A stretch of DNA of 64,000 bases from Bacteroidota bacterium. GTDB lineage: Bacteria > Bacteroidota > Bacteroidia > Bacteroidales > DTGW01. Under the pieces are notes generated by a model, which was given only the letters and a program-made list of their open reading frames with translations, was not told where the DNA came from and searched no databases. This document shows positions 18,606-18,665 of this stretch, piece after piece (position 1 is the first letter of the stretch; every line of letters begins with the position of its first letter). The stretch covers positions 42,560-106,559 of the forward strand of contig JAKPGM010000047.1 in assembly GCA_029550865.1 (NCBI GenBank), in the 5' to 3' direction. A program made the position numbers and the translations under genes.

Positions 18606-18665
18606 TTCACCTTTTATAGTAATATCCCATTGAAAAAATATAAAATTAATACTATAAAAGGTAAA
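18606..18665 (-). promoter_or_regulatory. Perfect 13-bp inverted repeat overlapping the AbiEi RBS (operator and/or RNA hairpin)
   Basis: Plus-strand arms ACCTTTTATAGTA (18609-18621) and TACTATAAAAGGT (18650-18662). In minus-strand RNA it extends to about 16 bp (one G-U) and pairs the AAAAGGUG RBS. Confidence 0.7.

Follow-up and report, generated by a model that had tools for sequence, protein, structure and literature searches.

The question raised by this locus is what a perfect inverted repeat does in the gap between cas7 and abiEi, inside a CRISPR-Cas operon of a Bacteroidota bacterium. The analysis points to a candidate operator through which AbiEi very probably represses its own promoter, that of the abiE pair. 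Control elements of this kind are already known; what is unusual is the place of this one within a CRISPR-Cas operon.

The operon and its AbiE pair

The window, i.e. the whole stretch of 64,000 nt analysed, displays on its minus strand the gene order cas6b-cas8b-cas7b-abiEi-abiEii-cas5b-cas3b-cas4-cas1-cas2, followed by a CRISPR array. This is a type I-B operon in which an AbiE pair separates cas7 from cas5. The upstream neighbour, cas7b (18744–19673, minus strand; Pfam 5.6e-41, PADLOC Cas7b), has its stop 142 nt before abiEi. The abiEi gene (17837–18601, minus strand; PADLOC AbiEi 6e-83) encodes a 254-amino-acid antitoxin and probable repressor with an N-terminal winged helix; it starts at the ATG at 18601, with an alternative GTG at 18610. 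At a spacing of 1 nt follows abiEii (16981–17835, minus strand), which encodes a predicted nucleotidyltransferase toxin (Pfam PF08843, 2.1e-40; PADLOC 3.7e-82), and the ATG of cas5b (16205–16975, minus strand; PADLOC Cas5b 4.9e-31) lies 5 nt past the abiEii stop. The array (8304–11482) consists of 49 identical repeats and 48 spacers of 34–38 nt, and the spacers have no convincing match in the window outside the array, the best being 14–18 nt.

The structure model of AbiEi has a pLDDT of 95.9. In a Foldseek comparison with the PDB, the best four matches are to Streptococcus agalactiae AbiEi (6y8q) and Rv2827c (1zel), followed by winged-helix domains. No AbiEi relative was found when solved structures were searched by sequence, whereas the fold search did match; viral contigs yielded no AbiEi relative. 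With a predicted winged-helix AbiEi next to a predicted AbiEii nucleotidyltransferase, the pair has the composition of an AbiE type IV toxin–antitoxin system. S. agalactiae AbiEi and Rv2827c bind pairs of 23 bp inverted repeats that overlap their own promoters, with gaps between the repeats of 3 bp and 13 bp, respectively (PMC7319586).

The inverted repeat and the predicted promoter

The perfect 13 bp arms, ACCTTTTATAGTA at 18609–18621 and TACTATAAAAGGT at 18650–18662, are 28 nt apart, as the preliminary description had reported. When mismatches are allowed, the arms extend to 18606–18624 and 18647–18665; these are 19 nt long, complementary at 17 of 19 positions and separated by 22 nt. The upstream (5′) half-site at 18647–18665 reads TTTACCTTTTATAGTATTA on the minus strand. 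The inverted downstream (3′) half-site at 18606–18624, TTCACCTTTTATAGTAATA when read as the plus strand, overlies the abiEi ribosome-binding region and includes AAAAGGTG, the Shine-Dalgarno-like sequence of abiEi (18608–18615, minus strand). The long inverted repeats thus stand directly upstream of abiEi, where an operator is expected.

Dinucleotide shuffling of the 142 nt gap yields a perfect 13 bp repeat with a loop of up to 60 nt in 12 of 3000 cases, and a 17/19 repeat in 2 of 1500. Two perfect 13 bp repeats are present in the window as a whole, compared with none in 20 whole-window shuffles; the second is ATTGGATAGCTCT at 37804–37841, with a loop of 12 nt. A pattern search of the organism's own genome finds the half-site, at two or fewer mismatches, only at these two arms. 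At up to two mismatches, neither this search nor a scan of the window revealed a further AbiEi site, for example in the cas6 promoter. The only match in Rfam is a tmRNA.

The −7 consensus of Bacteroidota is TAnnTTTG. A −7-like box that deviates from it in the last base, TAATTTTA, is found at 18641–18648 (minus strand), on the inward side of the 5′ arm; the window has no clear −33 element to go with it. The same offset is occupied by TATTTTTG, TAATTTTG and TATATTTG in the related loci L002, L003 and L025, respectively. Among the 11 candidate operators found here, eight match TAnnTTTG exactly, with the motif either between the arms or at the inner border of the 5′ arm, compared with a mean of 0.96 in shuffled operators; none of 1000 shuffles reaches eight. 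The repeats therefore overlap a predicted abiE promoter, in the window with one deviation in the box.

The repeat in related loci

Relatives of AbiEi were drawn from 99 and 393 neighbourhood genomes and from a collection of species genomes, and 36 abiEi loci were tested for inverted repeats with 400 shuffles per locus (p ≤ 0.01). The preliminary description had called for arm conservation to be checked in related loci, and the symmetry does recur: a significant repeat precedes 10 of the 36 abiEi genes, vs 0 of 36 intragenic control stretches. By this test, which may miss weaker, shorter or differently spaced sites, no significant repeat is present in roughly two thirds of the loci, the cas7-abiE-cas5 loci L030 and L035 among them.

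The half-site TTACCTTTT (in one case TTACCTTTC) is present in both arms in the window, L002, L003 and L025, and the arms of L047 are nearly TTACCTTTT. In L006 and L057 both arms have a different sequence and the layout is unchanged. The 11 candidate operators span 57–63 bp, with arms about 41 bp apart from centre to centre. In the close clade, only L025 is compatible with 23 bp repeats and a 13 bp gap.

A search with the bare DNA pattern also covered 395 genomes of the class, and 30 matched loci were fetched. Two further abiEi genes, L141 and L153, are preceded by the repeat, whose end coincides with the abiEi start or lies no more than 2 nt from it; neither has cas neighbours in the stretch examined. 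Apart from these two, the looser class-wide pattern gives mostly background, with similar counts in controls. With the strict pattern, the window is the only match among 297 genomes of the phylum.

Other AbiEi subclades (L028, L029, L109 and L112) display short-loop repeats directly upstream of abiEi, e.g. TAATATAACCTG-atattga-CAGGTTATATTA in L109; these are perhaps operators of another layout. In genome G207 (L144 and other places) a 58 bp sequence, TTACCTTTCACCC...GGGTGAAAGGTGA, is present in eight or more near-identical copies, a dispersed palindromic repeat family apparently unrelated to abiE.

abiE pairs in other cas operons

An abiE pair is situated between cas7 and cas5 in L002, L003, L006, L030, L031, L035, L042 and L102, and between or near cas3 and cas4 in L004, L045, L047, L048, L057 and others; in some relatives the pair also stands alone. 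It is found directly before cas4 in L004, L045, L047, L048, L057, L105 and L111, which represent other Bacteroidota cas operons, so the association of abiE with cas genes is wider than the window. A quick AbiEi tree shows both placements scattered, with well-supported branches forcing at least two changes each. The cas7-abiEi gap measures 87–220 nt. The abiEii-cas5 gap is −4 to +7 nt in all seven relatives with both ends present, and the abiE-cas4 gap is −4 to +37 nt. No paper describing abiE inside cas operons was found in the open-access literature, subscription literature being outside the search.

What follows cas7 was compared for 16 cas7 genes from the order: it is abiE in six, an IS200/RAYT-like transposase open reading frame in three, and cas5 itself in seven, where the gap measures −17 to 55 nt. 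All ten cas7-cas5 junctions that lack abiE are also without the long, widely spaced repeat, which indicates that the gap and the repeat both come with abiE; L136 has a short-loop 12 bp hairpin, which is of another kind. In L127, L133 and L134, the junction is filled not by abiE but by the transposase open reading frame, named IS200/RAYT-like from its sequence. Its presence suggests that the junction tolerates insertions.

DNA operator or RNA hairpin

The main alternative is that the arms function mainly at the RNA level: on mRNA reading through from cas7 they would form a hairpin that hides the abiEi ribosome-binding site, with abiE then translated mainly from its own transcript. Minus-strand RNA is predicted to form a stem of 16 pairs, one of them G-U, which covers AAAAGGUG ahead of the ATG at 18601; this bears out the stem of about 16 bp previously proposed. 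The 73 nt hairpin has a predicted energy of −19 kcal/mol (z −5.06), the z-score being only −0.98 when the whole 150 nt gap is folded. Stable stems are predicted for the window and for five further loci (z −2.3 to −6.3), but such a stem arises from any DNA inverted repeat of that length. The symmetry is kept among loci, and covariation of this kind would be expected from a hairpin and from paired DNA half-sites alike.

Three observations weigh against the hairpin, which the preliminary description had offered as an alternative or an addition to the operator, as the selected function. The 26 arm mismatches, a small number from operators chosen for symmetry, comprise four G-U wobbles, ten non-pairing transitions and 12 transversions; G-U is not preferred, and selection for RNA pairing is thus not apparent. 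The −7 box lies between the arms, so transcripts from the abiE promoter, with their likely start there, would be without the 5′ arm and could not form the hairpin. The repeat also precedes abiE pairs that have no cas genes upstream in the stretch examined. A primary role as an RNA hairpin is accordingly improbable, and the comparison of loci favours the DNA operator. RNA reading through from cas7 would nevertheless contain the stem, which may have a side effect there. The earlier proposal of an AbiEi operator, on the other hand, is well supported by the conserved symmetry, its position, the promoter box, the predicted AbiEi fold and linkage of the repeat to abiE and not to cas.

Other explanations

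A chance palindrome or the remnant of a mobile element is disfavoured and has a very low probability. Transposase open reading frames do occur at the same junction in L127, L133 and L134, but these three loci lack the repeat, and both the shuffle tests and the conservation of the repeat with abiE speak against such an origin.

It is scarcely credible that a degenerate CRISPR repeat on the plus strand of the gap, CCTTTTATAGTAATATCCCATTGAAA, serves as a creA- or CreR-like guide with which Cascade would regulate abiE or the cas operon. The ends of this sequence resemble the array repeat CCTTTAATCGAACCATAGTGGAATTGAAAT, but an equally good alignment is obtained in 114 of 1000 gap shuffles, and L002 and L003 lack the ATTGAAA end. 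The similarity is not significant, a CreTA-type repeat is not recognised, and the reading was rejected.

A 35-codon hydrophobic open reading frame (18614–18721, minus strand) overlaps the arms in the gap, and the symmetry might follow from the codons of a real leader or toxin peptide. The reading frame has 29–35 codons with one predicted hydrophobic stretch, and FILPFIVL is in frame in L002; against this, an arm is in another frame in L003, as is the 3′ arm in L002, and L006 has the same symmetry despite an unrelated sequence. As the peptide is not kept across relatives, this explanation was rejected with hardly any probability left to it, and the open reading frame is probably a by-product of T-rich operator sequence.

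Relation to known systems

The candidate AbiEi operator shares with that of S. agalactiae abiE (6y8q; PMC7319586) two inverted repeats in the abiEi-abiEii promoter and a winged-helix AbiEi of the same fold. The S. agalactiae repeats are 23 bp long and 3 bp apart in a stand-alone operon, whereas here 19 nt arms 22 nt apart are found inside a type I-B cas operon. In Rv2827c-Rv2826c of Mycobacterium tuberculosis (1zel; PMC7319586), inverted repeats also straddle the promoter, which is a predicted one here, and the protein has the same fold. That operator has a 13 bp gap and an outer span of 59 bp, near the 57–63 bp found here, but is composed of two pairs (four repeats) where one pair was found here. 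The window thus lacks the 23 bp repeats with gaps of 3 or 13 bp that mark the two studied operators, and its centre-to-centre distance of about 41 bp exceeds the approximately 26 and 36 bp derived from their gaps (PMC7319586). As the two studied operators themselves differ in spacing, the spacing is taken as variable and not as defining.

CreTA systems are CRISPR-regulated toxin–antitoxin RNAs in which the RNA antitoxin guides Cascade (PMC9458426, PMC8501985). As here, the toxin–antitoxin pair and a type I cas operon are in physical linkage. The antitoxin here is instead a protein with its own candidate DNA operator, and there is no significant degenerate repeat.

Proposed mechanism and significance

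We infer AbiEi binding, repression, the start site and read-on into cas5-cas3-cas4-cas1-cas2 as follows. Two AbiEi molecules would bind the two inverted half-sites, each about 18–20 bp, with centres some 41 bp (four helical turns) apart and flanking the −7 region of an internal promoter. Bound AbiEi would repress this promoter between cas7 and abiEi, from which transcription is predicted to start after the 5′ arm. The internal promoter may read on into cas5-cas3-cas4-cas1-cas2, and AbiEi would thereby tune these genes alongside the main promoter located ahead of cas6. Such control of the downstream cas genes is plausible, based on the gene spacing and the recurring arrangement.

The candidate operator would extend the known kind to Bacteroidota, with a wider spacing of half-sites, and the recognisable half-site TTACCTTTT helps to locate abiE operators by sequence. 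A broader idea, tentative and to be viewed with some doubt, is that abiE represents a protein-based guard in type I cas operons, in which an AbiEi-controlled promoter drives the downstream cas genes separately. If so, cas5, cas3 and the adaptation genes would be driven apart from cas6-cas8-cas7, CRISPR dose and toxin release would be coupled through the antitoxin level, and losing the operon would be punished; cas7-abiE-cas5 and cas3-abiE-cas4 would then be variants of one design. A toxin–antitoxin operator and promoter within the cas operon of several lineages, where the end of the toxin gene touches the start of the next cas gene, would link abortive infection to CRISPR dose in a testable manner.
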